DNA of 64,000 nucleotides. Origin: Micromonospora sp. WMMD812 (GTDB taxonomy: Bacteria; Actinomycetota; Actinomycetes; Mycobacteriales; Micromonosporaceae). A program made the translations under genes and the position numbers. Positions 45,297-62,353 of this stretch are shown in pieces. Numbering within the stretch: position 1 is the first letter of the stretch; every line of letters starts with the position of its first letter. The stretch covers positions 186,001-250,000 of the forward strand of contig NZ_CP114904.1 in the NCBI RefSeq assembly GCF_027497215.1, read 5' to 3'. The notes beneath the pieces were generated by a model, which worked only from the letters and a program-made list of their open reading frames with translations, made no database searches and was not told the DNA's origin.

Positions 45297-45743
45297 ATGG
45301 ATCGCGCATCTCGGCCCAACGCCGACCATTCCGGTGCCAGCCACCGGTTCCGGGTCGAGCTGCGGTCCTGGCGTACCCGGGCGGGGTTGACCCAGCGCGC
45401 GTTGGCGGAGCGGGTGCGGTTCAGTCGCGAGACGGTCGCCGCGGTCGAGTCCGGCCGCCGGTTCGGCAGTCACGAGTTCGCCGTGCGCTGCGACGAGGTG
45501 CTCGACACCGGTGGGTGTCTGGCGGGGCTGTGGCCGCAGGTCGCGGCGGAGCAGTTGGCGGCGGACGGGCGCCGGGGCCCTCGCCTGATCGCGGTGGACA
45601 CGCCGCCGGCCCGGCGGGACGCCCGTGACCCGGGTGCGGTCGTGGCGGCGATCGACGAGTTGCGCGAGCTGATCGGTCAGGTGCTCAGCGCCCCGCCGGG
45701 CCCGGAGGACGGGTCGGCCGGCGAGGTCGCCCGCCGGTCCTGA
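45297..45743 (+). CDS. XRE family helix-turn-helix regulator
   Basis: A 148-residue protein with an N-terminal XRE/Cro-type helix-turn-helix at about 19-72: ELRSWRTRAGLTQRALAERV then FSRETVAAVESGRRFGS. The C-terminal 70 residues are polar, low-complexity and Asp/Ala/Pro-rich with no recognised sensor domain. A 271-bp gap separates it from the P450 and 182 bp from the sensor gene. It may control either neighbour; the sequence does not settle which. Confidence 0.82.
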   Translation: MDRASRPNADHSGASHRFRVELRSWRTRAGLTQRALAERVRFSRETVAAVESGRRFGSHEFAVRCDEVLDTGGCLAGLWPQVAAEQLAADGRRGPRLIAVDTPPARRDARDPGAVVAAIDELRELIGQVLSAPPGPEDGSAGEVARRS

Positions 45744-45806
45744 GGCCCGCCGGCGTCGATGCGCGGGGGCCGGCCCGCCGGCGCTGCTGACTCTGGGTAC
45801 AGATGT

Positions 45807-45827
45807 TGGTACGGGCTGTTTGTACCA
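45807..45827. promoter_or_regulatory. Inverted repeat upstream of the sensor-transporter operon
   Basis: TGGTAC (45807-45812) and GTACCA (45822-45827) flank 9 bp; a third GGTAC copy lies 12 bp to the left. It lies 100 bp before the TTG start of the sensor gene, in the only gap that could hold the operon promoter. Confidence 0.45.
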
Positions 45828-45925
45828 CGGGCGGGTCTGGTCTCAGCGCACGGGTTCCGGCGCAATGAAACGTGCATACGGCAACGTGCACATAGGTCAC
45901 CGTCGATGAGCCGTGGGAGTCAGTC

Positions 45926-48394
45926 TTGGCGTCGAGCACGAGGTCCCACGCGGCCCGACCCTACCCGAATCGGCGTCGAGGGTGGAGGATCGCCTCCCGG
46001 ATGCGGCTCATCGTGGCCGCCCCGCTGGTCGCGGTGATCGGGTTCGCCGGCCTGGCGCTGACCGAGAGCGCCCGCCAGACCACCCGCGCCAGCGACCTCG
46101 GCAACCTGGCCCGGCTCGGCGCCGAGGCGGGCGACCTGGCCCACCGGTTGCAGCGGGAACGGGTCGCCGCCGCCGACCTCCTGGGCCGCGGGGGACCGCA
46201 GCAGCAAGACGCCTTCGCCGACGCCACCACCGCCACCGACGCGGTCATCGCCGGCTATCGCGCGCAGCGGGCCCGGATCCCGGCCGGGCCCGCAGCGAGC
46301 CGCGCGGTCCTCGACCGCATCGACGCGACGCTGGACGCCCTCCCGCCGCTGCGCGCCCAGGTCCGCACGGCGGCGCACGCCTCGGTCTCCGCGATGACCT
46401 TCGGCTACCGGATCGCCATCGCCGACCTGCTCACCCTCCGGGAGAGCGTCACCGTCGGCGTGGTCAACGCCCGCATCGCCGACGGCGTCCGGGCCTCGGC
46501 GGCGCTGTCCAAGACGGCCGAGGCGGTCGGCCAGCAGCAGGTGGCGGTCCTGCGGGCGGTGTCGGCCGGCGAGCTGACACCGGCCCTGCAGCAGGACATC
46601 ACCGCCGCCCGCACCAGCTTCACCGAGTCCAGCCTGTCGTTCCTGGCCCTCGCCCGGCCCGAGTGGAGCGTCTGGTGGGAGCAGGCCGGCAGCGGCGAGC
46701 AGGCGCTCCTGCTGCAACGGCTGCAGGACGAGGTGTCCCGCACGCAGGCGGGCGGCCCCCTGCGACTCGACGTCGACGCCTGGATCACCGCCACGCAGCA
46801 GTGGTCCGGACGCCTCTCCGACCTTCGGCAACGGGTCGACGCTGCGGTGCTCGACGACGTCCGGGCCGCGCACGCCGACCAGCGGCGCCGAGCCGCGGTC
46901 GAGGCCGTCGCCGTGGCGGTCGCGCTGGTGCTCACCGCCCTGGTCACCTGGGTGGTCGCCCGCCAGATCACCCGCCGGCTGCGCCGGCTGCGGGACGCGG
47001 CGAACGCGGTGGCCTTCCAACGACTGCCGGAGGTGGTGGCCCGGCTGCAACAGCCGGACAGCGGCTCGGTCGACCCGGACGAGCTGGCCCGGCGGCAGAG
47101 CACCGAGGCGCTGGAACCGTCCAGCGACGACGAGATCGGCGAGCTGGGGCAGGCGTTCAGCGCGGTGCACCGGGCGGCCGTGCGCACCGCGGCCGAGCAG
47201 GCGGTCATGCGGGCCAACACCGCGGACATCTTCATCCACCTCAGCCGGCGCGAGCAACGCCTGGTGGACGCGGTGCTGGCCCAGGTCGACCGGGTCGAGC
47301 GGGACGAGACCGACCCCGAACGCCTGGAACAGCTGTACGCGCTGGACAACCTGGCCACCCGGATGGGCCGGATCAACGCCAGCCTGCTGGTGCTCGGCGG
47401 GGTCGGCGTCGGCCGGGTACGGCAGGAGGACGCCCCGCTGCAGAAGGTCCTGCAGGCGGCGCAGTCCCAGATCGAGCACTACGCCCGGATCCGGCTCGGC
47501 ATGGTCGACGGCGACGTGGCCGTCGCGGCCGAGGCGGTCGACGAGGTGGTGCACCTGCTCGCCGAGCTGATGGACAACGCGACCGTCTACTCGCCGCCCG
47601 GCACCGAGGCCTGGGTGACCGGCCGGAGCCTGGGCGACCGGGTGATCATCCAGGTCAGCGACGAGGGCGTGGGCCTCTCCCCGCAGCGGCTGCACCAGCT
47701 CAACGAGCTGCTGGCCCGCCCGCCGGCCATCGACGTGGCCGCCGTGCGGGCGATGGGGCTGGTCGTGGTGGGGCAGCTCGGGGTGCGGCTGGGAGTCGCC
47801 GTGCAGCTGCGACCCGGCCCCCGGCTCGGCACCATCGCCGAGGCGGCGCTGCCGGCGACGATGATCCGGCCGCTGCCCCCGGAGGAGTACCTGCTCAGCG
47901 CCGCCCGGCCGTCCCGGCGCACGGCGCGTACCGCCGCCCCACCGCCGCCGTACGCGCCGCCGACGGTGCCGCGGCCGCGGGCCGGGCGACCGGCCCCCGA
48001 CCGGGCGTTGCCGGCGGCGCCGGTGTTCCGGCCGGCCGCCGCGCCCGGCCGGGGCGACGCGCCGACCGAGGAGCTGCTCATCTTCCAGGAGGTCAACCAC
48101 TGGTTCCGGACTGACCAGCCGAACGGTCACCACGGCGCGCCGTGGGCCAGCCCGGCCGACGACGCCTGGCGGGCGGCCGCCCAGGTGGCCGCCCCGGACG
48201 TCGTCACCACCACCAACTCCGGCCTGCCCAAGCGGCAGCCGCAGCGGCACCTCGTCCCCGGCACGGTCACCACGCCGACGCAGCCCCAGCGGTCCGAGTA
48301 CCGCGACCCGGCGCAGGTGGCCACCGCGATGGCCGCGTACGCCCGCGGCGTGGCCGCCCGCCGCCCCACCCTGACCAACCAGGGCAACCAATGA
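45926..48394 (+). CDS. Nitrate/nitrite-sensing-domain histidine kinase-like protein (CvnA-like)
   Basis: An 822-residue membrane sensor. Membrane helix at about 26-46, an extracytoplasmic helical NIT-type domain to about 310, a second membrane helix at about 312-335, a HAMP-like linker, a DHp-like helix pair around 425-490 and an ATPase domain to about 640. The N-box is [12 protein letters not shown] and the G-box is SDEGVG. The last 180 residues are a Pro/Arg-rich disordered tail. The family DHp motif usually reads LDHLATR; here it is LDNLATR, so the presumed phosphoacceptor is Asn. TTG start with GGGAG upstream. It resembles CvnA of Streptomyces conservons and is coupled by ATGA overlap to a Roadblock gene. 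Confidence 0.82.
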
Positions 48395-48816
48395 CGCGAC
48401 AGGGAGAGCACGTGACCGACCACCAGGACCTCGGTTGGCTGCTGGACAGCTTCGCCGAACGCGCGACCGAGGTCAGCCACGCGATCGCCATCTCCAGCGA
48501 CGGCCTGATGGTGGCCGCCACCCGGGACCTGCCGCCGGACCGCGCCGACCAGCTCGCCGCCACCGGCAGCGGCCTGGTGAGCCTGCTCCGCGGCGCGGCC
48601 GCGTTCTTCGACGCCGGCGCCGTGATCTCCAACGTCACCCAGCTCGAGGGCGGATTCATGTTCTCGATGGCCTTCAACGACGGCGCGTCCCTGCTGGTGC
48701 TCGCCTCGCCGCACTGTGACGTCGGCAAGGTCTCGTACGAGATGACCGAGCTGGCCAACCGCATCGGCGACGCCCTCACCCCGGCCGCCCGGGCGGCGCT
48801 CAGCCGCAGCCGCTGA
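48391..48816 (+). CDS. Roadblock/LC7 domain protein (CvnB-like)
   Basis: A 141-residue Roadblock/LC7 protein: [31 protein letters not shown] opens the fold (quoted across two strands), then [21 protein letters not shown]. In conservons CvnB partners CvnA and the GTPase CvnD. ATG 48391 overlaps the sensor stop; a GTG at 48412, with AGGGAGAG before it, is an equally good start and would shorten the protein by 7 residues. No CvnC (DUF742) or CvnD GTPase gene follows; instead an ABC importer begins 54 bp downstream. Confidence 0.85.
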
Positions 48817-48870
48817 CCCCCTCCCGGCACCCCCTCACGCCGGGCCGTTCATCCCCTCTGGAAGGAAGAC

Positions 48871-50061
48871 ATGTCTGTCACCCCTCGGCGCGGCCGCGCC
48901 CGCACCGCCAGCCTGCTCGCCCTCGTCCTGCTCACCGCGGCCGCCTGCAACCAGGACGGGCCGGGCGCGAGCGAAGCTGGCTCGATCAAGATCGGCCTGC
49001 TGGCGTCGCTCTCGGGCACCTACCAGGCGGTGGGCACGGAGATCCGCGACGGTTTCGAGCTCTACCTGTCCACGCACGACGGCAAGCTCGGCGGACGCAC
49101 CGTCGACCTCGTGGTCGCCGACGAGGGCAACGGCGCGCCGACCGCGGTGCCGGCCGCGACCAAGCTGCTCAAGCAGGACCGCGTCGCCGCGCTCACCGGC
49201 ATCGTCGGGGGCGGCTCGGTCGCCGCCGTCTACCCGCTGCTCAACGAGACCAAGGTGCCGCTCGTCGGCTCGAACGGCCGGCCGGAGCTCAAGGACGTGT
49301 CCCGGATCTGGCACACCTCCTACCTGTCCGACGAGCCCGGTGAGGCGATCGCCCAGCACGTGCGCGACAACGTGAAGGGCTCGGTCTACGCGATCGGTCC
49401 GGACTACCAGGGCGGCTGGGACGAGCTGCGCGGCTTCACCGAGGCCTTCGCCAAGGCCGGCGGCACGCTGGCCAACCCGGACGGCAAGACCACGTTCACC
49501 CCGTTCCCGACCACCACCAACTTCACCCCGTACTTCGCCCGGATCAAGGCGTCCGGGGCGAACGCCGTCTTCACCTTCTACGCGGGCAGCGCCGCGGTGG
49601 ACTTCGTCAAGCAGTACGCCCAGTCGGAGATCCGGGATCTTCCGCTCTACGCCGCCGGCTTCCTCACCGAGGGCGGGGTGCTCGACGCGCAGGGCGAGGC
49701 CGCCCGTGACATCTACTCCGTGCTGAACTACTCGCCGGACCTCGACAACGCCGAGAACCGAGCCTTCGTCGCGGCCTGGAAGGCCGAGCACGACGGCTCC
49801 CCGACGACGTACGCCATGGCCTCGTACGACGCGGCGGCGGTGCTCGACCGGGCGATCGGCGCCGCCGGGGACAATCCCACGCCGGAGAGCATCAACGAGG
49901 CCATCGGCAAGCTCGGGCAGATCGCCAGCCCTCGCGGCACCTGGCAGTTCTCCACCACCACCCACTCACCGGTGCAGAAGTGGTACCTGCGCCAGGTCCG
50001 CCAGGACGGTCGGGCGCTCTCCAACACCGTCGTCGGTGATCTCGCGACTGTCGGCCGATGA
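48871..50061 (+). CDS. Branched-chain amino acid-type ABC transporter substrate-binding lipoprotein
   Basis: A 396-residue lipoprotein of the Leu/Ile/Val-binding (type I periplasmic) family. Signal peptide to LLTAAAC (Cys about 27), then IKIGLLASLSGTYQAVGTEIRDG, the usual opening, with TAVPAATKLLKQD and GIVGGGSVAAVYPLLNE. FTPFPTTTNFTPYFARIKAS is a recognisable hinge-region motif. RBS GGAAGGAAG precedes the ATG. It lies 54 bp after the Roadblock gene in the same direction. Ligand could be an amino acid, amide or urea-like compound; no residue pattern decides it. Confidence 0.88.
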   Translation: MSVTPRRGRARTASLLALVLLTAAACNQDGPGASEAGSIKIGLLASLSGTYQAVGTEIRDGFELYLSTHDGKLGGRTVDLVVADEGNGAPTAVPAATKLLKQDRVAALTGIVGGGSVAAVYPLLNETKVPLVGSNGRPELKDVSRIWHTSYLSDEPGEAIAQHVRDNVKGSVYAIGPDYQGGWDELRGFTEAFAKAGGTLANPDGKTTFTPFPTTTNFTPYFARIKASGANAVFTFYAGSAAVDFVKQYAQSEIRDLPLYAAGFLTEGGVLDAQGEAARDIYSVLNYSPDLDNAENRAFVAAWKAEHDGSPTTYAMASYDAAAVLDRAIGAAGDNPTPESINEAIGKLGQIASPRGTWQFSTTTHSPVQKWYLRQVRQDGRALSNTVVGDLATVGR

Positions 50062-50954
50062 GCACGGTGGCGGCCGGCACGGCCCGGATCGACCCGTACG
50101 TCATCCCCGCGCTGGACGGCGTGGCCTACGGCCTGCTCGTCTTCGTCGCCGCGGCCGGGTTGGTCTTCTGCTTCGGGGTCGCCGGCATCCTCAACCTCGC
50201 CCACGGCACGCTCTACGCCATCGGCGGCTACACGGCGGCGGCCCTGCTGGACGGCGGCTGGCCCAGCCTGGCGCTGGCACTGGGGGTCGGCGTCGCCGCC
50301 GCCACCGCCGGCGGGGTGGTGCTGGCCGGGTTGCTCACCCGGGCCGCTTCGCGCAACCACCTCACCCAGGCGCTGCTGACCTTCGGGGTGGCGCTGGCCG
50401 GCGGCAGCCTGCTCGTCTCCGCGTTCGGGCCCGACGACCGCCCGGTCCACGTCCCCGCCGCGCTCGACGGGTCCGTGTCGGTGGCCGGCCACCGGTACGC
50501 CGCGTACCGGCTGGTCTTCATCGTCGTCGCCGCGCTGCTGGCCGGCCTGCTCTATCTCACCGTGCGCCGCACCCGGGCCGGAATGCTGGTCCGCGCCGCC
50601 GTCGACGACGCCGAGATGGTCGCGTGCCTCGGTGCCAGCCCGACCCGGATCCGGGTCGGTGTGCTCGCCGCCGCCGGAGCGCTCGCCGGCGCCGCCGGTG
50701 TGCTCGGCGCGCCGATCATCGGCCCCGGGCCGGACACCGCCGACACCGTGCTCCTGCTCTCCCTGGTGGTCGTGGTGCTCGGCGGTCTCGGGTCGCTGAC
50801 CGGCACGCTGCTCGCCGCGCTCCTGGTGGGGGAGATCCAGACCCTCGGTGTGGCCCTCGCCCCGTCGGCGGCGCCCTTCCTGCTCTTCGCGGCCATGGCC
50901 GCCGTGCTCGCGGTCCGCGCGCGGGGCCTCGCCACCGCGAGGAGGGCGACGTGA
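50058..50954 (+). CDS. Branched-chain amino acid-type ABC permease (LivH-like)
   Basis: A 298-residue membrane permease with about eight hydrophobic segments and the LivH features VFCFGVAGILNLAHGTLYAIGGYTAA near 36-60 (in parts) and LVVVVLGGLGSLTGTLLAALLVGEIQTLG near the C-terminus. Start overlaps the binding-protein stop (ATGA) and its stop overlaps the LivM start (GTGA). Confidence 0.92.
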   Translation: MSTVAAGTARIDPYVIPALDGVAYGLLVFVAAAGLVFCFGVAGILNLAHGTLYAIGGYTAAALLDGGWPSLALALGVGVAAATAGGVVLAGLLTRAASRNHLTQALLTFGVALAGGSLLVSAFGPDDRPVHVPAALDGSVSVAGHRYAAYRLVFIVVAALLAGLLYLTVRRTRAGMLVRAAVDDAEMVACLGASPTRIRVGVLAAAGALAGAAGVLGAPIIGPGPDTADTVLLLSLVVVVLGGLGSLTGTLLAALLVGEIQTLGVALAPSAAPFLLFAAMAAVLAVRARGLATARRAT

Positions 50955-51973
50955 GGGACGAGCTGATCCGCCCGCTGCGCCGCACGGTGGCGGCCGTCGT
51001 GCTGGCCGGACTCGTCCTGGCGCCCTGGATGGTCGACGACTACACCGCGGCGATCCTCGCGCGCACGCTCGCCCTCGGCCTGGTCGGGGTGAGCGTCGCC
51101 CTGCTGACCGGGGTGGCGGGCCTGCCCACCCTCGGCCAGACCGCACCGTACGCGGCCGGCGCGTACGCCTGCGTGGTGGTCGGCGGGAGCGTCTCCGACG
51201 TCGGGGTCGTGCGGTTCGCCGTCGCGGCGGCGGCGGGCGCGGCGCTGGCCGCGCTGACCGTCCCGCTCGTGGTGTCGGCCCGCGGGGTGGTCGTCCTCAT
51301 GATCACCCTGGCGGTCGGCGAGCTGGTCGTCACCGTCGTCGGCCGCTGGCGGTCGGTCACCGGCGGCACGGACGGGCTCGCCGGCATCTCCCCGATCCGC
51401 CCGTTCTGGGGGCTGCCGGTCCTCGCCACCGACCGGGCCCGCTACCTGTACACCCTGGTGGTCGTCGCGGTGGCGGTCGGCGCCCTGCTGCTGGTCCTGC
51501 GGACCAGGGTGGGCCTGGTGCTGCGCGCCGGCCGCGACGACGAGGCCCGGCTGCGGGCCAGCGGGCACCGGATCGCCGCCCACGTCGCCGGCGTGCACAT
51601 CGCCGCCGGGGCGATCGCCGGGGGCGCGGGCTCACTGCTCGTGGTCGCCCAGCAGTACGTCTCACCGGCCGACTTCAGTTTCGACACGTCCGCCCTGCTG
51701 CTGCTCGGCGTGGTGATCGGCGGCACCGCGTCGGTCGGCGGCGCCCTGCTCGGCGCGGCGCTCGTCATCGCCGCCCGGGACTGGCTGTTCGGCCTGCTCC
51801 CCGGCCAGGCGCCGTTGGTGCTGGGCGCGGTCTTCATCGCGACCGTCTATCTGCTGCCCGGCCCCGGGCACGGGCGGTCACGCCGGTGGGGCCGGCCGCA
51901 CCCCGGTATCCGTCCGCGCCCGTCGGGGCCTCGCCCGGCCCGCGAGCCCGTCCGGACGGAGGTACGGGCATGA
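50951..51973 (+). CDS. Branched-chain amino acid-type ABC permease (LivM-like)
   Basis: A 340-residue permease with multiple hydrophobic helices from about 13 to 305. It shows LPTLGQTAPYAAGAYA near 57-72 and VVIGGTASVGGALLGAALV near the end, the LivM equivalents of the LivH motifs. The final 35 residues are a basic, Pro/Arg-rich cytoplasmic tail, longer than usual. GTG start in a GTGA overlap; ATGA overlap with the ATPase gene. Confidence 0.9.
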   Translation: MRDELIRPLRRTVAAVVLAGLVLAPWMVDDYTAAILARTLALGLVGVSVALLTGVAGLPTLGQTAPYAAGAYACVVVGGSVSDVGVVRFAVAAAAGAALAALTVPLVVSARGVVVLMITLAVGELVVTVVGRWRSVTGGTDGLAGISPIRPFWGLPVLATDRARYLYTLVVVAVAVGALLLVLRTRVGLVLRAGRDDEARLRASGHRIAAHVAGVHIAAGAIAGGAGSLLVVAQQYVSPADFSFDTSALLLLGVVIGGTASVGGALLGAALVIAARDWLFGLLPGQAPLVLGAVFIATVYLLPGPGHGRSRRWGRPHPGIRPRPSGPRPAREPVRTEVRA

Positions 51974-52713
51974 CCCCGCTGCTGGCCGCGCGCGGCATCA
52001 CCGTCCGGTACGGATCACTGGCCGCGCTGGACGCGGTGGACCTCCGCGTCGACCACGGTCAACGGCACGCGCTCATCGGGCCCAACGGCGCCGGGAAAAC
52101 CACCCTGCTCGACGTCATCGCCGGGGCCACCCGGCCGGCCGGCGGGCGGGTCCGACTCGCGGGCCGAGACGTCACCCGGCGCGGGCCGGCGGCCCGGGCG
52201 CGGCGCGGCGTCGGCCGGATCCACCAGCGGCCCGCCGTCTGGTCCACCCTCACGGTGACCGAGAACGTGCAGGTCGCCGCGTTGCCGCACGCCGCCCGGC
52301 CGGGCCGGTGGCAGCCCGGCGCGGCCCGGCGCGCGGCCCGCCGCACCGCCGGCACTCTGCTCGACCGGGTCGGCCTGGCCGACCTCGCCGCGCTGCCCGC
52401 CGGCCAGCTCGCCCACGGTCAGCGGAGACAACTGGAGATCGCCATGGCGCTGGCCGGGCGGCCCCGGCTGCTGCTGCTCGACGAGCCCGCCGCCGGGCTC
52501 TCCGCCACCGAGGTCGGCCGGCTGGTCGACTTCCTCCGGGAACTGCCCCGGGCGGTGGCCGTCCTGCTGGTCGAGCACCGGCTGGACCTGGTCTACGAAC
52601 TCTGCGACACGGTCACCGTGCTGCGCGACGGCCGCACCCTCGCCGCCGGCACGCCCGACGAGATCCGCGCCTCCGACCTGGTGCGGCGGGCCTACGCCGA
52701 GGGGGTGGCCTGA
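51970..52713 (+). CDS. Branched-chain amino acid-type ABC ATPase (LivG-like)
   Basis: A 247-residue ATPase. Walker A is GPNGAGKTT, and the Q-loop region GRIHQRPAVWSTLTV is a LivG-type motif. The signature region reads LAHGQRRQLEIAMAL in place of the canonical LSGG, common in this subfamily. Walker B is LLLLDEPAAG and the H-loop VEHRLD. ATG start overlaps the LivM stop. Confidence 0.92.
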   Translation: MTPLLAARGITVRYGSLAALDAVDLRVDHGQRHALIGPNGAGKTTLLDVIAGATRPAGGRVRLAGRDVTRRGPAARARRGVGRIHQRPAVWSTLTVTENVQVAALPHAARPGRWQPGAARRAARRTAGTLLDRVGLADLAALPAGQLAHGQRRQLEIAMALAGRPRLLLLDEPAAGLSATEVGRLVDFLRELPRAVAVLLVEHRLDLVYELCDTVTVLRDGRTLAAGTPDEIRASDLVRRAYAEGVA

Positions 52714-53510
52714 TGCTGCGGCTGGACCGGGTCTCCGCCGGCTACTACGGCGGGACCGTGCTGCACGACGTGACGCTCCACGTGCCGCCCGGGAGCATCC
52801 AGGCGGTGGTCGGCCGCAACGGCGCGGGCAAGTCCACCCTGGTGCACACGATCGCCGGCCTGGTCCGGCCGCAACAGGGCCGGATCGAGATCGGCGGGGT
52901 GCAGGTGGCCGGACGCCAGCCGCACCGCATCGCCCGGTCCGGGGTCGGGCTGGTCCCGCAGGGGCGGCGGGTCTTCTCCCGGCTGACGGTGGCCGAGCAT
53001 CTCGTCCTGGCCGCCGCGCCCTGGCGTGCCGCGACGCCCGGCGGCGAGGGCTGGACGGTGACCCGCGTCCTGGAGCTGCTGCCCCGGCTGGCGGTGCGGC
53101 TGCGCCACCGCGGCGACCAGCTGTCCGGTGGTGAGCAGCAGATGCTGGCGATCGCCCGGGCACTGCTCGGCCAGCCCCGGGTGCTGCTGCTCGACGAGCC
53201 GTGCGAGGGGCTCGCCCCCGACCTCGCGGCCCGGGTCCGGGACCTCGTCGGCGGCCTGGCCGGCACCGGGCTCACCGTGCTCCTGGTCGAGCAGCAGCTC
53301 CAGCACGCCATCGACATCGCCGACCGGGTCGCGGTGCTGGAGTACGGGCGGCTGGTCTACGACCGGCCGTCCACCGAGGCACGGGCCGACCCGGCGACGC
53401 TGGCCGCGATGTTGAGCATCGCCACCGTCGCCACGTCGCCGGCCCCCGGACCGGCGCCCGGGCTCTGGGCCGACGCCCCGCAGTCGTCACGACCACCTAG
53501 GGAAGGGTGA
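52713..53510 (+). CDS. Branched-chain amino acid-type ABC ATPase (LivF-like)
   Basis: A 265-residue ATPase with Walker A GRNGAGKST, Q-loop LVPQGRRVFSRLTVAEHL, signature LSGGEQQM, Walker B LLLDEPCEGL and VEQQLQHA as the H-loop with Gln where His is usual, a LivF-typical variant. The C-terminal 25 residues are an Ala/Pro-rich tail. TGATG junction with LivG; its stop overlaps the methyltransferase GTG. Confidence 0.92.
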   Translation: MLRLDRVSAGYYGGTVLHDVTLHVPPGSIQAVVGRNGAGKSTLVHTIAGLVRPQQGRIEIGGVQVAGRQPHRIARSGVGLVPQGRRVFSRLTVAEHLVLAAAPWRAATPGGEGWTVTRVLELLPRLAVRLRHRGDQLSGGEQQMLAIARALLGQPRVLLLDEPCEGLAPDLAARVRDLVGGLAGTGLTVLLVEQQLQHAIDIADRVAVLEYGRLVYDRPSTEARADPATLAAMLSIATVATSPAPGPAPGLWADAPQSSRPPREG

Positions 53511-54322
53511 ACACGATGCGCACGGAGACCATCGACAGCGAGTACGCCTTCGACAACGCCGCCGCCGAGGCGGTGCCCCAGCTGCGCGCGCTGGAGGCGT
53601 TCCTCGACCCGATCACCATGCGCCGACTCGCGCCGCCGGTCCTCTGCCAGGCCGCCCGATGCTGGGAGGTGGGCGCCGGAGGCGGGTCGGTGGCGCACGG
53701 CATGGCCTGGGCGGTCGGCGCGGACGGCCACGTGCTGGCCACCGACATCGACACCTCGCGACTGGCCCCGACGGCCAACCTCGACGTCCGCCGGCACGAC
53801 GTGCGCACCGAGCTGCCGCCGGGGGCGGCGTTCGACCTGGTCCACGCCCGGCTGGTGCTGCTGCACCTACCGGAGCGCCGGCACATCCTCCGGTCGCTCA
53901 CCGGCGCGCTCGCTCCCGGGGGGTGGTTGGTGGTCGAGGAGTTCGACTGCACCGCGCCACTGCGGGTGCTGACCGCACCCAACGACGACGCGGCGAAGCT
54001 CTTCGGCCAGGTCGCCGACGCGATGCTCGGCATCCTCCAGGGTCACGGCGCCGACCTGGCCTGGGCGCAGGACGTGCACGCCGAGATGACGTACGCCGGC
54101 CTCGTCGACGTCGACACCGTCACGCACGCGGAGAGCTGGGCCGGCGAGTCCAGTGGAGCGTCGCTGTACGAGACGAACTCGCGGCAGCTGGAACCGGAGC
54201 TGCTGGAGGCCGGGTTCACCCCCGGCCAGTTGGAGGCGTTCCGCAAGCTCCTGCGCGATCCGGCGTTCGCGGTGATGTCCTACGAGTTCGTGTCCACGCG
54301 CGGCCGGCGGCTGCCCGGGTAG
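53507..54322 (+). CDS. SAM-dependent methyltransferase
   Basis: A 271-residue class I methyltransferase. SAM-binding motif I is WEVGAGGGSVAHGMA near 53-67, motif II is VLATDIDTSRL, motif III region is FDLVHARLVLLHLPER near 105-120, then LAPGGWLVVEEFD. GTG start overlaps the LivF stop (GTGA), so it is the last gene of the sensor-transporter operon. It may modify the imported substrate or a protein of the system; nothing in the sequence decides this. Confidence 0.87.
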   Translation: MNTMRTETIDSEYAFDNAAAEAVPQLRALEAFLDPITMRRLAPPVLCQAARCWEVGAGGGSVAHGMAWAVGADGHVLATDIDTSRLAPTANLDVRRHDVRTELPPGAAFDLVHARLVLLHLPERRHILRSLTGALAPGGWLVVEEFDCTAPLRVLTAPNDDAAKLFGQVADAMLGILQGHGADLAWAQDVHAEMTYAGLVDVDTVTHAESWAGESSGASLYETNSRQLEPELLEAGFTPGQLEAFRKLLRDPAFAVMSYEFVSTRGRRLPG

Positions 54323-54475
54323 CCGCCCGCGGGTCTCCGGCCGGGCGGGGGCGACGATTACGGCGTCCCCGGCCGATCCGCTGTGCCAGACTCGGGGAAG
54401 CGCAGGCCGTCCCCGTGTCGCCCGCCCCTCCCTCCGGTCCGGTTGCCCGTTCAACGGTCAGGAAGGGACAGCATC

Positions 54476-54856
54476 GTGAAACACCACGAGTTCGTCGCCG
54501 CCGTACGCCAGCGCGGTGAGTACGGCAGCGCGGCGGAGGCCGAGGCGGTCATCCGCGCCGTCCTCAGCGTGCTCGCCGCGCGCCTGACCCCGGCCGAGGC
54601 CCACGACCTCGCCTCCCAGCTGCCGCAGGGCATCGCCGAGATCCTCGAGGACCAGCACGAGCCGACCCTGCAACTGTCGGCGCAGGAGTTCCTCAACCGC
54701 ATCGCCGCCGGCACCGGGGCGACGACGCGGACGGCCCAGTGGGATGCCGGCGCGGTGCTGACGACGCTGGCGGACGCGGTGAGCTGGGGCGAACTCAACC
54801 AGGTGATCACCCAGCTGCCGTCCGGCTACGCCGTACTCTTCGGCACCAAGGCATGA
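54476..54856 (+). CDS. DUF2267 family protein
   Basis: A 126-residue all-helical protein of the DUF2267 family. It carries the repeated pattern EAVIRAVLSVLAARLTPAEAHDLASQLP and later AVLTTLADAVSWGELNQVITQLP (both quoted in under-20 pieces of the motif), with the QLP(S/Q)G turn twice. No function is established. GTG at 54476 has AGGAAGGGAC upstream; a longer ATG start at 54383 has none. A bidirectional hairpin follows. Confidence 0.8.
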   Translation: MKHHEFVAAVRQRGEYGSAAEAEAVIRAVLSVLAARLTPAEAHDLASQLPQGIAEILEDQHEPTLQLSAQEFLNRIAAGTGATTRTAQWDAGAVLTTLADAVSWGELNQVITQLPSGYAVLFGTKA

Positions 54857-54857
54857 G

Positions 54858-54911
54858 GTGACGAGCGGCGCCGCGCCGCCGATCGGGTCGGCGGCGCGGA
54901 CGCCTCGTCAC
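54858..54911. terminator. Bidirectional two-tier hairpin between DUF2267 and coiled-coil genes
   Basis: An inner 12-bp stem (54871-54882 with 54888-54899, loop TCGGG) is enclosed by an outer 8-bp stem (54858-54865 with 54904-54911, GTGACGAG/CTCGTCAC), with a short bulge between. It spans the gap of two convergent genes and overlaps the end of the minus-strand one. Confidence 0.78.
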
Positions 54912-56683
54912 GCCTGCTCCATGACCTCCGCGTCGGCCCGCCGTTCGCCGGGTTCGAACATGTCGGTCCGCCGTTCGCCGGGCTCGAACATGTCGACCGG
55001 CCGCCCGCTGGGCTCGAACATGTCGGCCCGCCGTTCGCCGGGTTCGAACATGTCGACCCGCCGCCCGCTGGGCTCGAACATGCCGACCCGCCGCTCGCCG
55101 GCCCCGACCACGTCGGCCCGCCGCTCGCCGGTCGGCGCCTCGTCCGCCGGCTGATCGCCGGCCGCCGCCTCGTCGGTACGCGGTGTGCCGCCCTCCGCGC
55201 CGCCGGTGGGCCGCTCGCCGGTCGCCTCGTCGTCGCCCCGCCGTTCGCCGCCCATCGTGCTGTCGGGCCGCCGTTCGCCGGTCGCGGCGTCGTCCGTCCG
55301 CCGTTCGCCGCCCGCCAGGTTGTCGGCGCGCCGCTCGGCGGTCGCCTCGTCGTCGGCCGGCCGTCCGCCGGTCTCCGCCCCGGGGGACGGCCGCTCGGCT
55401 GCCGATCGCGCGGTCACCATCGGATACTCGGCGGTCGCCACGCCGCCCGCGGCGGCGGCCATCACCGCGGCCGCGGCGAGGTCCGCGACACGCTTCGCCT
55501 CCCGCTGCACCCGCGCACGGACGTCCTTGGCGTGCCGCTCGGCCGAGTCGGCCGCCCGCCGCGCCGCGTCGAGGCGTTCGACCTCGGCGCTGAGCTCCCG
55601 GCGGATCTCGTCGAGGCGTTGCCGCACCTGGGCCAGCTCGCGATCCGCCTCCGCCTGCTCGTGGCGCGACTCGGCGAGCTGCTGCCGGGCGCTCTCCAGC
55701 TCGGACTGCAACTGGGTCACCGCCTGCTGCCGGGCCGAGAGCTCCTGCTGCACCACGGTGAGCCGCTCCTGGTGGGCGGTGGCCTGCTCGTCCGCGCGCT
55801 GGCGTACCTCGGTCGCGTACTGCTGGGCCTCGGCGATGAGCGAGCCGATCGTCTGCTCGGCGGCGTTGCGCTGGCCGGCGATCTCCCGTTCGGCGGCGGC
55901 CCGCTGCTCGGCCAGGTCCTGCTCGGCGGCGGCCCGCCGTTCGGTGACGTCCCGTTCGATGTTGGCCTGCCACTGGGCCAGCTCCTGCTGGCTCTTGCTG
56001 CGGGCCGCCTGGAGCTCCTGCTGGATCTGGGTACGGGCCGCCCGGGTCAGCGCCTCGGACGCGGCCCTGGCCTGTTCGATCTGCTGGGCGCTCTGCTCGC
56101 CGATCCGCTTCGCCTCCTGACGGGCGCGCTCGTGGGCGGCCTCGCCGTCGGCCCGCAGCTTCTCCGCCGCGTCCCGGATCTCGGCCAGCTCGGACTCGGC
56201 CGCGGTGCGGCGCTCCTCGTAGACCTTCTCCTGCTCGGCGCGCTGCGCGGCCAGCTCCTCCTCCAGCTCCTGCAACGCCCGGGCCGTCCGCTCTCGGGCC
56301 TCGACGAGCGTCTTCTCCGCCTCGGCGTGCAGCTCGTCGGCCTGCTGGGTGGCCGCCTCCGTGATCAGCCCGGCCTGCTTCTCCGCCAGGGCGAGGATCT
56401 GGTCGACCACGGGACCGAGGTCGCGGAACGTCGCCCGATCCGGCTGGGCCGGCCGTTGGCGCAGCTCGGTCAGCTCCGTGTGCAGCTGCTGGAGCTGACC
56501 GGTCAACTCCCGGACCTGGCCGCCGTTGCGGTCCCGCTCGGCGGCCAGCGCCGCGAGCTGGTCACTCACCTGCTCGACGTACCAGTCGACCTGCCGCTTC
56601 TCGTAGCCACGCCGCGCCAGCTCAAAGGTGGGTCGTGAAACCCCGCCCTCGCGTACCGCGAACGGCTCGTCGCCGTTGGACAT
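54908..56683 (-). CDS. Long coiled-coil DivIVA-like protein with decapeptide-repeat tail
   Basis: A 591-residue cytoplasmic protein. Residues 1-50 contain SRPTFELARRGYEKRQVDWYV, a DivIVA/Wag31-type opening. Residues about 45-410 form a nearly continuous coiled coil rich in Glu, Gln, Arg and Ala. A short Ala-rich helix (about 412-425) follows. Residues 439-588 are fifteen exact 10-residue units of the type GERRxDxxxx. RBS GGAGG precedes the ATG at 56683; a longer in-frame start is open but has none. Probable role: polar scaffold or cell-envelope organiser, inferred from the N-terminus and coiled coil only. Confidence 0.8.
   Translation of the reverse strand: MSNGDEPFAVREGGVSRPTFELARRGYEKRQVDWYVEQVSDQLAALAAERDRNGGQVRELTGQLQQLHTELTELRQRPAQPDRATFRDLGPVVDQILALAEKQAGLITEAATQQADELHAEAEKTLVEARERTARALQELEEELAAQRAEQEKVYEERRTAAESELAEIRDAAEKLRADGEAAHERARQEAKRIGEQSAQQIEQARAASEALTRAARTQIQQELQAARSKSQQELAQWQANIERDVTERRAAAEQDLAEQRAAAEREIAGQRNAAEQTIGSLIAEAQQYATEVRQRADEQATAHQERLTVVQQELSARQQAVTQLQSELESARQQLAESRHEQAEADRELAQVRQRLDEIRRELSAEVERLDAARRAADSAERHAKDVRARVQREAKRVADLAAAAVMAAAAGGVATAEYPMVTARSAAERPSPGAETGGRPADDEATAERRADNLAGGERRTDDAATGERRPDSTMGGERRGDDEATGERPTGGAEGGTPRTDEAAAGDQPADEAPTGERRADVVGAGERRVGMFEPSGRRVDMFEPGERRADMFEPSGRPVDMFEPGERRTDMFEPGERRADAEVMEQA
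54920..55369 (-). repeat. Fifteen tandem 30-bp units encoding decapeptides
   Basis: The coding tail of the coiled-coil gene is fifteen contiguous 30-bp units with no length variation. Units nearest the stop are the most alike (GERRADMFEP, SGRRVDMFEP, SGRPVDMFEP, GERRTDMFEP) and those further in are more diverged (GERRTDDAAT, GERRPDSTMG). The gradient suggests recent duplication at the 3-prime end of the gene. The Glu/Arg/Asp core is kept in nearly all units. Confidence 0.9.
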
Positions 56684-57890: not shown

Positions 57891-58922
57891 TCAGGCGGGT
57901 GCCGGGCCGGTGGAGTCGCGGACCACGAGGGTGTGCCCGGTCGATCGGCGGCGTGGCCGGGTCGACCGGGGTTTGAGCGCCAGGGCGAGAGCCATCCGCC
58001 CCATGTCGGTCATCGGCAGCCGGACGGTGGTGAGGCTGGGCGCCAGGTCGGCGGCGACGGAGACGTCGTCGAAGCCGACCACCGACATCCGGTCCGGCAC
58101 GGAGATGCGGTGCGCCCGCAGCACGGCCAGCACCCCCATCGCCATCGCGTCGTTGAGCGCGATGATCGCGGTCGTCGCCGGGTGGTCGCTGAGGATCTGC
58201 TCGGCGGCGACCCGGCCGCCCTCGCGGGTGAAGTCGGTGTGCACGACCGGCAGGTCGCCGAGGTCGAGGCCGTGGCGCTGCAACGCCGACGCGACCCCGG
58301 CCATCCGGTCGGCGACGGTGGTGAGCCCCTCGGTGCCGGCGGCGACGGCGATCCGCCGGTGCCCCAGCGCGAGCAGGTGCTCCGCGAGCGCCCGCCCGCC
58401 GGCCTCGTTGTCCGGCAGCACCGCGTCGGCGCCGAGCGAGTGGCGGCCGATGACCGCCACCCGCCCGCCGAGGTTCTGATATGCCGACAGCTCCGCCTTC
58501 GTCTCGGCCTCGACGCGGGGGTCGGTGTAGCCGGAGCCGGCGATGAGGATGATGCCGACCCGCTGCGCGATGAGGTGGCGGATCTGGCGCAGCTCGAAGC
58601 CCGGGTCCCGTCCGGAGTGGCAGATCTGCACGAGCAGCCCCTGGTCGGCGGCGACCTGGATGACACCCCCGGCGATCTCGGAGAAGTAAGGGTCGTCCAC
58701 CTGGTGCACGACCAGCCCGACCGTGGAGCTCGCCCCGCCGGCGAGGGTGCGGGCGTACGGGTTGGCGACGTAGCCCAGCTCCTGGGAGACCCGCCGCACC
58801 CGGTCGGCGACCTCCTCGCTGACGCCGTCCCGGCCGGCCAGAGCCCGCGAGGCGGTCGCCAGCGACACACCGGCCCGCTCGGCGACGTCGACGAGGCGCA
58901 ACCTCGAGCCAGGCTTGGGCAT
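57891..58922 (-). CDS. LacI family transcriptional regulator
   Basis: A 343-residue LacI-type repressor. The N-terminal helix-turn-helix RLVDVAERAGVSLATASRAL is at about 8-27, with the hinge helix NPYARTLAGG near 55-65. The periplasmic-binding-like effector domain follows, including FDDVSVAADLAPSLTTVRLP near the end. It is divergent from the second branched-chain-type importer, and an 18-bp perfect palindrome of LacI type lies in the gap. Confidence 0.93.
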   Translation of the reverse strand: MPKPGSRLRLVDVAERAGVSLATASRALAGRDGVSEEVADRVRRVSQELGYVANPYARTLAGGASSTVGLVVHQVDDPYFSEIAGGVIQVAADQGLLVQICHSGRDPGFELRQIRHLIAQRVGIILIAGSGYTDPRVEAETKAELSAYQNLGGRVAVIGRHSLGADAVLPDNEAGGRALAEHLLALGHRRIAVAAGTEGLTTVADRMAGVASALQRHGLDLGDLPVVHTDFTREGGRVAAEQILSDHPATTAIIALNDAMAMGVLAVLRAHRISVPDRMSVVGFDDVSVAADLAPSLTTVRLPMTDMGRMALALALKPRSTRPRRRSTGHTLVVRDSTGPAPA

Positions 58923-59049: not shown

Positions 59050-60276
59050 ATGTCCACCCGGTTGACAAAGATGAGATGGGCAACGGCGTTCGGCGCGACG
59101 GTGGCCCTCGCGCTCGGCGGCTGCAGCGGGGGTGATGGCGGGGGTTCGTCCTCCGGCGACGACCCGATCGTGGTCGGCATCTCCCTGCCGCTGACCGGAG
59201 ACTTCTCCGAGCCCGGCAAGGGCGTGCAGCGCGGCTACCAGGCCTGGGCGAAGATCGTCAACGACAAGGGCGGTCTCCTGGGCCGACAGGTCGAACTGAA
59301 GATCCTCGACGACCAGTCCAACGCCGACCGCGTCGTCTCCGACTACGAGCAGCTGATCGGCCAGGACCAGGTCGACGTGGTGGTCGGTCCCTTCTCGACC
59401 CGGCTCGTCGTCCCGGCCGCCCGGGTCGCCGAGGAGTACGGCATGTTGTTCGTCGAGCCCGCGGGCGCGGCGAAGGAGGTCTTCGAGCAGGGCTTCAAGA
59501 ACCTGTTCTACGCCGCTCCGGCGGTTGCCAACGACCACTACAACCACCTCGCGGAGCACATCCTCGCCCTGCCGGCGGGGCAGCGTCCCACGACCGCCGC
59601 GTACGCCGCGATGGACGACCCGTTCGCCCAGGGCACCGCGTACGGCCTCAAGGAGAAGCTCACCGCCGGTGGCATCCGCACCGTCGTCGACGAGGTCTAC
59701 CCGCCGAACACCACCGACTTCAGCGGCATCGCCGCGAAGATCGCCGCGTCCAAGGCGGACATCGTGGTGGGCGGCTCGCAGTACCAGGACGGCGTCAACC
59801 TGATCGTCGCCCTCCAGCAGCTCGGCTACCAGCCGAAGCTGGCCGCCTTCTCCACGGCGCCGACCAGCCCCGAGTTCGCGGCCGCCATCGGCAACAAGAC
59901 CGAGGGCATCCTGTCGCCGACCGGCTACACCCAGAAGGCGCCCTACCCGAGCAACGTCGAGTTCGTCGAGAAGTACACCGCCCAGTTCGGTTCGGCGCCG
60001 GAGGAGGACGAGGCGAACGCGTACACCACCGGCCAGGTCGTCGCGGCCGCGATCACCGCGGTCGGCTGCGCCGAGCAGGGGGACTGCCAGAAGAAGCTGG
60101 TCGAGTGGGTCCGTGGCAACACGGTGGAGACGGTCGTCGGCCCGCTCAGCTGGGACGCCACCGGCAAGCCGAAGGGCGCCCACATGATCCAGCAGTGGGT
60201 CAAGGGCGAGATCCAGATCGTGCTTCCAGAAGACGCCAAGGAGACCGACTTCGTCTTCCCGAAGCCGGCCTGGTAG
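59050..60276 (+). CDS. Branched-chain amino acid-type ABC transporter substrate-binding lipoprotein
   Basis: A 408-residue lipoprotein. Signal peptide to the lipobox LALGGC (Cys about 25), Gly/Ser linker, then PIVVGISLPLTGDFSEPGKGVQRGY, the family opening. Also GLLGRQVELKILDDQSNADR and GPFSTRLVVPAARVAEEYG. The binding fold has a Cys pair near the C-terminus (GCAEQGDC), unusual for the family and possibly a disulfide. It starts the LacI-controlled importer operon, with AAAGGAG upstream of the ATG. Confidence 0.9.
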   Translation: MSTRLTKMRWATAFGATVALALGGCSGGDGGGSSSGDDPIVVGISLPLTGDFSEPGKGVQRGYQAWAKIVNDKGGLLGRQVELKILDDQSNADRVVSDYEQLIGQDQVDVVVGPFSTRLVVPAARVAEEYGMLFVEPAGAAKEVFEQGFKNLFYAAPAVANDHYNHLAEHILALPAGQRPTTAAYAAMDDPFAQGTAYGLKEKLTAGGIRTVVDEVYPPNTTDFSGIAAKIAASKADIVVGGSQYQDGVNLIVALQQLGYQPKLAAFSTAPTSPEFAAAIGNKTEGILSPTGYTQKAPYPSNVEFVEKYTAQFGSAPEEDEANAYTTGQVVAAAITAVGCAEQGDCQKKLVEWVRGNTVETVVGPLSWDATGKPKGAHMIQQWVKGEIQIVLPEDAKETDFVFPKPAW

Positions 60277-60282
60277 GCACCG

Positions 60283-61170
60283 ATGTCCTCTGGCGCGCTG
60301 ATCTTCCAGAGCGTCGTGCTGGGATTGCTCCTGGGCGGGCTCTACGCCCTGCTGGCCTCGGGTCTGACGCTCTACTTCGGCATCATGCGGGTGGTGATGA
60401 TCGCCCACTCGGCGTTCCTCATCCTCGCCGCCTACCTGGCCTGGTGGTGGCACACCCGGCTCGGCGTCGACCCGCTGCTGTCGCTGGTCGTCACGGTCCC
60501 GCTCTTCTTCGCCGCGGGGGTGCTGCTGCAGCGGCTGCTGCTGTCAAGGCTGCGCCCGGCGACCCTGACCATGATGTCGGTGCTGCTCACCTTCGCCATC
60601 GCGGTCATCATCGAGGGCCTGCTGGGGTACGCGTTCACCGGCACGCAGCGGCGCATCCAGCTCGGCTACGGCTCGGCGAACCTCGAGCTGTTCGGCGCCC
60701 GGATCGCGGTGGTCAAGCTGATCGCGTTCGGTCTCGCCGCCGCCGCGCTGCTGACGCTCTACCTGCTGCTCAAGAGGACGACCTTCGGGTGGGCGTTGCG
60801 GGCGACGATCCAGCACCGCGACGCCGCCCGGCTGGTCGGGATCGACACCGACCGGATCGCCGGCTTCGGCTTCGGGATCGGGCTGGCCAGCGCGGCCGTC
60901 GGTGGCACCGCCCTGGCCCTGGACACCACCATCTACCCGTCGCTGCACTGGCACTGGATCGGCCCGCTGATGGCGATCATCGTGGTCGGCGGGCTGGGCA
61001 GCGTGCCGGGGGCCGCGGCCGCCGCCATGGTGCTCGGCCTGCTCCAGAGCCTGTTGCAGATCCCGCTGAACACGACCTGGGCGCAGACCATCTTCTACCT
61101 CGCGCTCTTCGCCACGCTGGCGTTCCGCCCGCAGGGATTCTTCGGAGGTCGGCTTGCCCAGCGCTTCTGA
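60283..61170 (+). CDS. Branched-chain amino acid-type ABC permease (LivH-like)
   Basis: A 295-residue permease with about eight helices. The N-terminal LLLGGLYALLASGLTLYFGIMRVVMIAHSAF and the C-terminal PLMAIIVVGGLGSVPGAAAAAMVLG are the LivH motifs (quoted in parts). It begins 6 bp after the binding-protein stop. Its own stop lies inside the next gene, a 17-bp overlap. Confidence 0.92.
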   Translation: MSSGALIFQSVVLGLLLGGLYALLASGLTLYFGIMRVVMIAHSAFLILAAYLAWWWHTRLGVDPLLSLVVTVPLFFAAGVLLQRLLLSRLRPATLTMMSVLLTFAIAVIIEGLLGYAFTGTQRRIQLGYGSANLELFGARIAVVKLIAFGLAAAALLTLYLLLKRTTFGWALRATIQHRDAARLVGIDTDRIAGFGFGIGLASAAVGGTALALDTTIYPSLHWHWIGPLMAIIVVGGLGSVPGAAAAAMVLGLLQSLLQIPLNTTWAQTIFYLALFATLAFRPQGFFGGRLAQRF

Positions 61171-62353
61171 TCCGACACCGACGGCCGCCACGACAGCCCC
61201 CGGCGGCCCGGCGGCCACGACAGCGTCCGGCGGGCCGGCCGGGGCGCGCCGGCCCGCGGTCACCACCGGCCGGATCGTCCAGGGCGTCGTGCTCGTGGCG
61301 CTCGTCGCGGTGGTGCTCTCCTTCCCGTCGCTGGCGCCCAACCCGTACATCCTCTCCGCCGGGATCCTGGTGCTGAACTACGCGGTCCTGTCGACCTCGT
61401 GGAACTTCGTCGGAGGGTTCACCGGCTACATCTCGCTCGGGCACGGCGCCCTCGCCGGGCTCGGCGCGTACGGCACCGGGCTGCTGGTCACGAAGGCCGG
61501 CCTGCCGAGCTTCCTGGCCCTGGTCGTCGCGGCCGTCGGGGTCGCGGCGCTGGCCGTGCCGATCGGGTACGCGGCGCTGCGGGTCCGCGGCGCCTCCTTC
61601 GTCATCGTGTCCATCGCGCTGGTGCTGGTGATGCTGCTGGTCTTCCAGAGCTGGGCGTCGTTCACCGGTGGGTCCCGGGGCCTGGTCGTGCCACGGCCGT
61701 TCCCGGATCTGCTGCGCCCCGAACACCACCGGGTCTTCTGGTTCCTCTTCGCCGCCCTGCTGGCGCTCGCGCTGCTGGTGTGGTGGGTGATCGACCGTTC
61801 GCGGTTCGGCCTCGGGCTGAAGGCGATCCGGGAGGACGAGGACAAGGCCGAGGCGCTGGGCACCCCGACGTTCACCTACAAGCTGGTGGTCTTCGTCGTC
61901 TCGGCCGGGTTCACCGCCTGCGCCGGCGGCCTCTACGCACTCTGGTTCGGCGACCTCGACCCGGTGTTCCAGTTCTCCATCCTGACCGGGTCGTACATGG
62001 TCCTCATGGCGCTGCTCGGCGGGGTGCGCAACCTGTTCGGTCCGCTGCTCGGCGCCGTGGTCGTGGGCACCGCGCTGGAGTACTTCAAGGTCGAGTACGG
62101 CAACACCCCGCTGCACCTGGTCGCGACCGGCCTGCTGCTCGCCCTCGTCGTGCTCTTCATGCCCGACGGCGTGCTGCCGGCGATCGCCGCGCTGCTCGAC
62201 CGGTTCCGGCCGGCCCAGCACTCGATCCGTGAGGTGACCGCCGCCGAGTTGCGCGACCAGCGCGAGCGCGGCGACACGGGCGAGGCACCACCCGAGCTGG
62301 CGGCGGCCGGCAACGGCGGACCGGGTGCGGAGCGAAGCGAGGGGCGGTCATGA
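61154..62353 (+). CDS. Branched-chain amino acid-type ABC permease (LivM-like)
   Basis: A 399-residue permease. The first 40 residues are a Thr/Ala/Pro-rich cytoplasmic tail, then hydrophobic helices. GGFTGYISLGHGALAGLGAYG near 95-115 and LMALLGGVRNLFGPLLGAVVVG near 278-300 are LivM motifs. The C-terminal 50 residues are polar and Glu/Arg-rich. TTG at 61154 is preceded by GGAGG at good spacing. ATGA overlap with the ATPase gene. Confidence 0.9.
   Translation: MPSASDPTPTAATTAPGGPAATTASGGPAGARRPAVTTGRIVQGVVLVALVAVVLSFPSLAPNPYILSAGILVLNYAVLSTSWNFVGGFTGYISLGHGALAGLGAYGTGLLVTKAGLPSFLALVVAAVGVAALAVPIGYAALRVRGASFVIVSIALVLVMLLVFQSWASFTGGSRGLVVPRPFPDLLRPEHHRVFWFLFAALLALALLVWWVIDRSRFGLGLKAIREDEDKAEALGTPTFTYKLVVFVVSAGFTACAGGLYALWFGDLDPVFQFSILTGSYMVLMALLGGVRNLFGPLLGAVVVGTALEYFKVEYGNTPLHLVATGLLLALVVLFMPDGVLPAIAALLDRFRPAQHSIREVTAAELRDQRERGDTGEAPPELAAAGNGGPGAERSEGRS

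Follow-up and report, generated by a model that had tools for sequence, protein, structure and literature searches.

What does a conservon-type sensor listen to, and where does its signal go, when the genes usually encoded behind it are missing and a nutrient importer follows? This question is raised by an operon of Micromonospora sp. WMMD812 (genome 7.13 Mb), located in the window analysed here, a stretch of 64,000 nucleotides of contig NZ_CP114904.1 (positions 186,001-250,000; coordinates below count from its first letter) whose closest named loci are those of Micromonospora. A CvnA-like sensor and a CvnB-like Roadblock/LC7 protein are encoded ahead of all parts of a HAAT/Liv-type importer, namely a LivK-type solute-binding protein (SBP), two BPD_transp_2 permeases (LivH, LivM) and two ATP-binding cassette (ABC) ATPases (LivG, LivF), and a methyltransferase follows. 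This order on a single strand, first described in a sequence-only reading of the DNA, is confirmed by open frames and Pfam matches (Table 1). As that reading had also claimed, the partners CvnC (DUF742) and CvnD (GTPase) are absent, with no match to either family in the frames scanned between 45926 and 54322, and there is no classical response regulator, no receiver domain being found among the genes scanned in 45297-54856. A large actinomycete genome encodes five to ten conservons, and as many as 14 in some cases (PMC13343842); what they sense is an open question. Here we establish which genes this system contains, how well they are conserved, the loss of its GTPase, the exchange at the sensor's presumed phospho-histidine and the linkage to an SBP, and propose that it may be a conservon coupled to a solute-binding protein, in which a LivK homologue serves both sensor and importer.

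The SBP is the constant partner of the sensor-Roadblock pair

The Roadblock protein and LivK each served as a query against 150 family genomes. A Roadblock protein of at least 69% identity was present in 38, and because LivK lies directly 3' of it on the same strand in 37 of these, with the 38th (G059) reaching a contig end, the sensor-Roadblock-LivK order, as read from these sequences, is not due to chance. The expectation that relatives would keep the gene order, and with it the stable linkage of a CvnA/CvnB pair to a Liv-type importer without CvnC and CvnD, was thus borne out. In the genus, the Roadblock-LivK pair is found in 8 of 16 genomes; G144 adds a diverged A-B-D-K version that includes a GTPase (L113). 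Roadblock is the best-conserved protein of the operon, with a mean identity of 95.2% over 30 Micromonospora loci, compared with 88.9% for the SBP and 86.2% for LivH.

When genome contigs were scanned with a LivK alignment, relatives turned up at 168 places, the best 80 of which were followed up; these fall in Micromonospora, Plantactinospora, Phytohabitans, Dactylosporangium, Allorhizocola, Kitasatospora and Streptomyces. The upstream sequence is long enough at 72 named loci, and all of them have a sensor and a Roadblock gene ahead of LivK on the same strand, in a set that was chosen by LivK, partly overlaps the family set and counts loci, not genomes. In a class-wide search that scored six candidates per genome, the LivK profile matched at E <=1e-90 in at least 6 of 296 genomes, including three from the window's own genus, a breadth that is a lower bound outside Micromonosporaceae and Streptomycetaceae.

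The importer itself is less constant. Genes of relatives were called with our own codon-usage script and labelled by best blastp match, so that fused or frameshifted genes may be mislabelled. In 31 neighbourhoods from among the 37 (the window and 30 relatives), LivH stands behind LivK in 24, and in the other seven (L086, L087, L088, L105-L108) sensor, Roadblock and SBP genes are followed by unrelated ones. Because these seven lack adjoining importer genes, the SBP appears from gene order to be the constant partner of the pair and the importer the variable part. Of 20 further LivK loci, 15 follow a sensor-Roadblock pair encoded on the same strand. The remaining five are L122, which opens at a contig end with Roadblock and GTPase genes; L128, where a sensor and a GTPase but no Roadblock were called; L112, with the pair in divergent orientation; and L119 and L127, which have neither gene. 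Outside the family, L134 has sensor and Roadblock genes, and L135 and L136 comprise LivK, LivH and LivM without adjoining sensor genes. The methyltransferase is a frequent member of the operon, and sits between LivK and LivH in some other lineages. Two likely gene fusions were seen in passing: LivH with LivM in Streptomyces (L200, 655 residues with two BPD_transp_2 stretches), and LivG with LivF in some Micromonosporaceae (L120, L121, L124-L126), the latter as a single frame of about 500 codons and seen as frames only.

The GTPase was lost from the window's clade

The sequence-only reading held that a transporter here takes the place of the conservon's output, a view that the relatives contradict. 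In Dactylosporangium (L077-L083; named via L177, L179, L180 and L185) a CvnD-type GTPase is encoded between Roadblock and LivK, and the same position is occupied in L084, L109-L111, L113, L116, L118, L120, L121, L124, L126, L128 and, at a contig end, L122. Where the upstream sequence is long enough for a count, 19 of 51 loci in the family and 5 of 72 among the named ones have this GTPase, and blastp found CvnC in none of the same 51 and 72. The GTPase of L081 matches ATP_bind_1 (3.4e-29, Pfam). In a tree of 70 LivK proteins and an outgroup, the window's clade and its sister clade Dactylosporangium group together with a Shimodaira-Hasegawa-like approximate likelihood ratio test support of 94, and the solitary LivK of L119, on a long branch, falls in the same group; GTPase presence requires at least six state changes on this tree. 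Since the sister clade and other lineages keep CvnD between Roadblock and LivK, the sequences indicate that the form seen in the window is a conservon without CvnC that lost its GTPase, and not one whose GTPase was replaced by an importer. The seven importer-free relatives speak against such a replacement as well.

To look for the GTPase elsewhere, the Dactylosporangium protein was searched against 16 genomes, where two positive controls gave matches of 88-90%. In the 13 genomes of the window's clade there was no close ortholog, the best full-length matches being 63-64% identical, with the exception of a 106-residue fragment at 71% in G147. Each genome of this clade holds four to eight other CvnD-type GTPase genes, with five in the window's own genome, and these could act in trans. 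In L109 and L111 the GTPase retains its P-loop and is missing residues ahead of the TTxAMDFG motif, in what is probably switch I, as if these genes were en route to loss.

The presumed phospho-histidine of the sensor is replaced

NIT and HATPase domains were found in all 37 sensors scanned, LivK-linked and ordinary ones alike, with a significant HAMP match in 26, and a C-terminal LPxR motif (residues 767-770 in the window's protein), of the kind described for conservon kinases (PMC4316618, sections consulted), is present in 37 of 37 aligned sensors, the window's included. The N-box and G1 box of the window's sensor are likewise intact. This sensor reads LDNLATRM in place of LDHLATRM, which puts Asn475 at the presumed phospho-histidine position, a column occupied by His in all seven other CvnA proteins of the same genome. 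The LDHLATRM motif most likely holds the phosphorylated histidine, and the column would correspond to H183, the autophosphorylation site reported for CvnA8 (PMC13343842, sections consulted), judging by motif and domain position, as CvnA8 itself lies outside the alignment.

Of the 54 loci whose LivK exceeds 76% identity (some genomes counted twice), 44 have Asn at this position, 8 have Ser, one (L173) has His and one is unscored. The family loci that bear a GTPase have His in 14 of 18 (Leu in two, Asn and Met in one each), and all seven importer-free loci have His. Named loci without a GTPase and with LivK below 76% (n=37) have His in 30, a gap in one and no scorable sensor frame in six. Because Streptomyces retains His without the GTPase, loss of the GTPase and loss of the histidine are not strictly coupled.

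The SBP resembles binders of aromatic acids

The cysteine at position 26 of the SBP is invariant in 31 of 31 aligned proteins, and its AlphaFold model has a predicted local distance difference test score of 90.1. Both by sequence and by fold, the closest relatives with an annotated ligand are proteins that bind benzoate, 4-hydroxybenzoate or vanillate; among solved structures with a named ligand, the closest are binders of 4-hydroxybenzoate and vanillate. Those with a known ligand are RPA0668/hbaE and RPA0985 of Rhodopseudomonas palustris, which bind benzoic and 4-hydroxybenzoic acid and are, like the window's SBP, encoded in clusters with ABC transporter genes; unlike in the window, the text examined mentions no sensor or Roadblock genes with these importers (PMC3223731). 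Our best guess for the predicted ligand is therefore perhaps a benzoate-type aromatic acid. A link to nitrogen sources, as earlier proposed, found no support, as the SBP stays far under the curated NCBIfam cut-offs for urea (Urt) and E. coli-type branched-chain amino-acid importers (best score 73.8 versus 492.75); the LivH-type permease also scores under its NCBIfam cut-off (128 versus 250.3).

SBP genes lie beside other conservons

In the window's genome, Roadblock genes occur at eight places, which comprise five complete conservons (L069-L072, L075), one A-B-C set (L074), one A-B pair (L073) and the operon described here. These assignments follow gene order and similarity; L069 and L074 are the two in which Pfam confirmed DUF742. 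At L071, a Peripla_BP_6 gene is divergent from CvnA. Orthologs of this SBP (E <=1e-100) occur in 26 of 61 genomes, and in 20 of the 20 best loci from these 26 genomes the SBP gene adjoins that same CvnA in divergent orientation. No Liv-type permease was found beside it in the five regions read (L243, L245-L248), and in the window's genome it adjoins a permease closest to the SaoP/TauC/SsuC models, near thiD and thiC. Further arrangements include an L073-type A-B half-conservon with a divergent SBP gene (L242) and a complete L072-type conservon with a convergent one (L241).

In eight genomes picked by number, 14 of 68 Roadblock places, spread over six of the eight genomes, have a Peripla_BP_6 gene no more than 6 kb away, against 1.15 expected under random placement (Poisson 3e-11), so that LivK-type lipoproteins lie near about one fifth of the Roadblock loci of the Micromonosporaceae genomes sampled. 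Here 87 of 92 SBP places were used, five below the cut-off being dropped, and the sample was not blind, since all eight genomes were known to have Roadblock matches and six (G070, G080, G100, G110, G120, G130) LivK-type matches beforehand. An earlier run on five genomes known to hold such systems gave 12 of 47 against 0.75 expected, with 50 of 58 SBP places used and eight below the cut-off dropped.

Two observations stand apart. At both L245 and L071, thiD (1.4e-85), thiC (1.5e-275) and a gene for a TauC/SsuC-like permease lie near a complete conservon whose LivK-type SBP gene is divergent, and this conservon may sense a thiamine precursor. L073, the second sensor-Roadblock pair without CvnC and CvnD in the window's genome, lies between an FGGY kinase gene and a frame on the opposite strand.

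An upstream regulator and a palindrome accompany the operon

A gene for a regulator of helix-turn-helix (HTH) type lies ahead of the sensor. Orthologs at 64% identity or more occur in 20 of the 150 family genomes, each lying some 2.6-3.8 kb ahead of the Roadblock gene. Within the genus they are found in eight of the eight genomes with a close form of the operon and in none of the eight others, one of which (G144) has the diverged A-B-D-K version; in G031 and G077, also of the clade, the operon is present without the HTH gene. From this distribution we take the gene to be a dedicated neighbour of the operon in the window's clade. A palindrome with exact arms is present within 700 nucleotides 5' of the sensor in 44 of 46 loci of relatives from the Micromonospora/Plantactinospora clade, some genomes counting twice; of the two exceptions, L140 begins inside the sensor gene and L149 has its sensor called in two pieces. 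None was found in the other loci scanned, Phytohabitans included. A loose version of the pattern matches three places in the window's genome, with the inner sequence found only at the window's copy. The palindrome is a candidate operator, which the HTH protein would bind.

A model for signalling, and its alternatives

In the model that we favour, to which we would assign an even chance of being right, the LivK lipoprotein would bind a solute outside the membrane, our best guess being an aromatic acid of the benzoate type, and would pass it on to the LivHMGF importer; loaded LivK would also dock on the NIT domain of the CvnA-like sensor, which would relay its state to the Roadblock protein CvnB. 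Ancestrally, the next step would have been the CvnD GTPase encoded between CvnB and LivK. With this gene missing, and with Asn or Ser replacing the presumed phospho-histidine at every scored locus of the clade except one, the signal would now exit by another route, most likely the CvnD of another conservon or the dedicated HTH regulator with its palindrome. Ligand class, contact between SBP and sensor, direction of signalling and output route are the parts of the model that we infer. A tested precedent, by analogy, for an SBP acting on the sensor of importer genes is CuaD of Ruminiclostridium cellulolyticum, which binds the sensor CuaS and together with CuaSR triggers importer genes (PMC10384115, sections consulted). 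Both systems have an SBP gene beside sensor genes, as in 37 of 38 genomes with the window's type; CuaD binds its sensor and sharpens sensing for the importer genes, a contact that in the window is suggested by the genes, and CuaR is a response regulator where the window has a Roadblock protein, ancestrally with a Ras-like GTPase.

The leading alternative is plain co-regulation, in which the importer's expression is set by sensor and Roadblock acting through another conservon's GTPase, the SBP serves transport only, and gene order reflects co-expression and not contact. The several other CvnD-type genes in each genome of the clade would allow this, as would the strong conservation of Roadblock across the genus after GTPase loss, as if it still met a partner. 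We nevertheless consider it rather unlikely, since seven relatives retain sensor, Roadblock and SBP genes without an adjoining importer, and SBPs of the L071 type pair with CvnA without an adjoining Liv-type permease in the regions read. Clearly less probable is the direct gating suggested earlier, with Roadblock binding the LivG and LivF ATPases and tuning uptake post-translationally; the tight same-strand operon, the lack of a GTPase or response regulator within it and the lost phospho-histidine would fit, but sensor-Roadblock pairs of the same family occur without an importer and with an intervening GTPase, and no sequence feature indicates contact with the ATPases. It is also conceivable, though very improbable in our view, that the sensor pair is a decaying relic carried along with a useful importer after loss of CvnC, CvnD and the phospho-histidine. 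The missing GTPase would fit, as would the residue at the presumed phospho-histidine position, which 52 of the clade's 53 scored loci (some genomes twice) have as Asn or Ser. Against it stand a Roadblock protein more conserved than the SBP and LivH, the intact N-box, G1 box and LPxR motif of the window's sensor, and the retained HTH gene and palindrome; the L149 sensor, as noted, is called in two pieces.

How the SBP-coupled arrangement relates to described systems can be judged from the published sections consulted. Like other conservons (PMC4316618, PMC13343842), it has a CvnA of NIT/HAMP/HATPase type with a C-terminal LPxR motif, a CvnB Roadblock directly behind it and no response regulator; it differs in lacking CvnC and CvnD, in the Asn at the presumed phospho-histidine, and in the SBP, importer and methyltransferase that follow. 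The accessory proteins described so far, CvnE (a P450) and CvnF (a GAF protein), go with CvnA proteins that lack a sensory domain (PMC13343842, PMC4316618), unlike the window's CvnA, which retains NIT. Loss of the GTPase from conservons is already in print, in the form of orphan MglB/CvnB loci flanked by conservon genes that resemble the window in this respect; unlike in the window, no adjoining SBPs or importers are mentioned in the text examined, where two of three uses of "ABC transporter" concern excluded P-loop proteins (PMC4316618). The word "transporter" is absent from the main text of PMC13343842, and no SBP or importer appeared as a conservon partner in the titles and abstract openings of the best literature matches, a search whose coverage left out most subscription journals.

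The linkage to SBPs suggests what such sensors listen to, and where an SBP gene adjoins the sensor, the system comes with a ligand that can be tested. A conservon without GTPase and presumed phospho-histidine would, moreover, be a natural separation-of-function case for communication between CvnA and CvnB. A bolder extension, that LivK-type lipoproteins are a general input partner of conservons and that one Micromonospora system, lacking GTPase and histidine phosphorylation, signals by conformation alone through Roadblock or the HTH regulator, seems to us possible, if on the doubtful side.

Gene layout and neighbouring features

Table 1. Coordinates of the operon and adjacent features in the window
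Feature	Position	Strand	Evidence
Cytochrome P450	43697..45025	+	p450 5.7e-28; haem-ligand motif FGHGPHFCIG
HTH_31/XRE-type regulator gene	45297..45743	+	Pfam HTH_31 7.1e-12
Palindrome GGTACA-N19-TGTACC, candidate operator	45796..45826		5' of sensor gene, exact arms
CvnA-like sensor	45926..48394	+	NIT (70-308) 1.5e-31, HAMP 2.1e-5, HATPase_c 2.5e-9 (Pfam)
CvnB-like Roadblock/LC7 protein	48412..48816	+	Robl_LC7 8.9e-14 (Pfam); open frame from ATG 48391
GC-rich hairpin	48823..48844	+	inverted repeat CCCGGC/GCCGGG
LivK-type solute-binding lipoprotein	48871..50061	+	Peripla_BP_6 3.1e-70 (Pfam)
LivH-type permease	50058..50954	+	BPD_transp_2 7.7e-30
LivM-type permease	50951..51973	+	BPD_transp_2 1.9e-22
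LivG-type ATPase	51970..52713	+	ABC_tran 4.6e-32
LivF-type ATPase	52713..53510	+	ABC_tran 4.1e-33
Class I S-adenosylmethionine methyltransferase	53516..54322	+	Methyltransf_12 3.1e-10

Apart from the 54-nucleotide gap between Roadblock and SBP genes, neighbouring genes of the operon had been described as overlapping, which holds for LivK/LivH, LivH/LivM and LivM/LivG (4 nucleotides each) and LivG/LivF (1 nucleotide); the sensor/Roadblock and LivF/methyltransferase junctions are likely short gaps. An open frame does give the ATGA overlap between the sensor and Roadblock genes, but the GTG at 48412, preceded by GGGAGAG, looks like the better start, leaving a spacing of 17 nucleotides; the Roadblock genes of relatives were mostly called with a short gap after the sensor. 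For the methyltransferase, ATG 53516, 5 nucleotides after LivF, is more likely than GTG 53507, and the sensor may start at TTG 45926 or ATG 46001. The 54-nucleotide gap between Roadblock and SBP genes (48817-48870) contains the hairpin without a T run, and a simple scan, which does not exclude actinobacterial promoters, found no sigma-70-like site there, in keeping with the single operon proposed earlier. A similar repeat is visible by eye in the alignment of most Micromonospora relatives (absent from L095/L196, L145 and L148), and the hairpin may set different expression levels for SBP and sensor.

The P450 gene is a conserved 5' neighbour (16 of 16 loci, L089-L104) and probably forms a separate unit. 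Downstream of the operon lie a DUF2267 gene and a gene for a DivIVA-like protein (54908-56683), with 30-bp (10-residue) tandem repeats in the part coding for its C-terminus (about 54932-55397). A second Liv-type importer follows on the same strand, 4.7 kb downstream of the operon (59050-63829; SBP 59050-60276, permease 60283-61170, ATPase 62350-63090 and neighbours), with a gene for a LacI-type regulator ahead of it on the opposite strand (57891-58922); the best match of its SBP is a branched-chain amino-acid model, under the cut-off.

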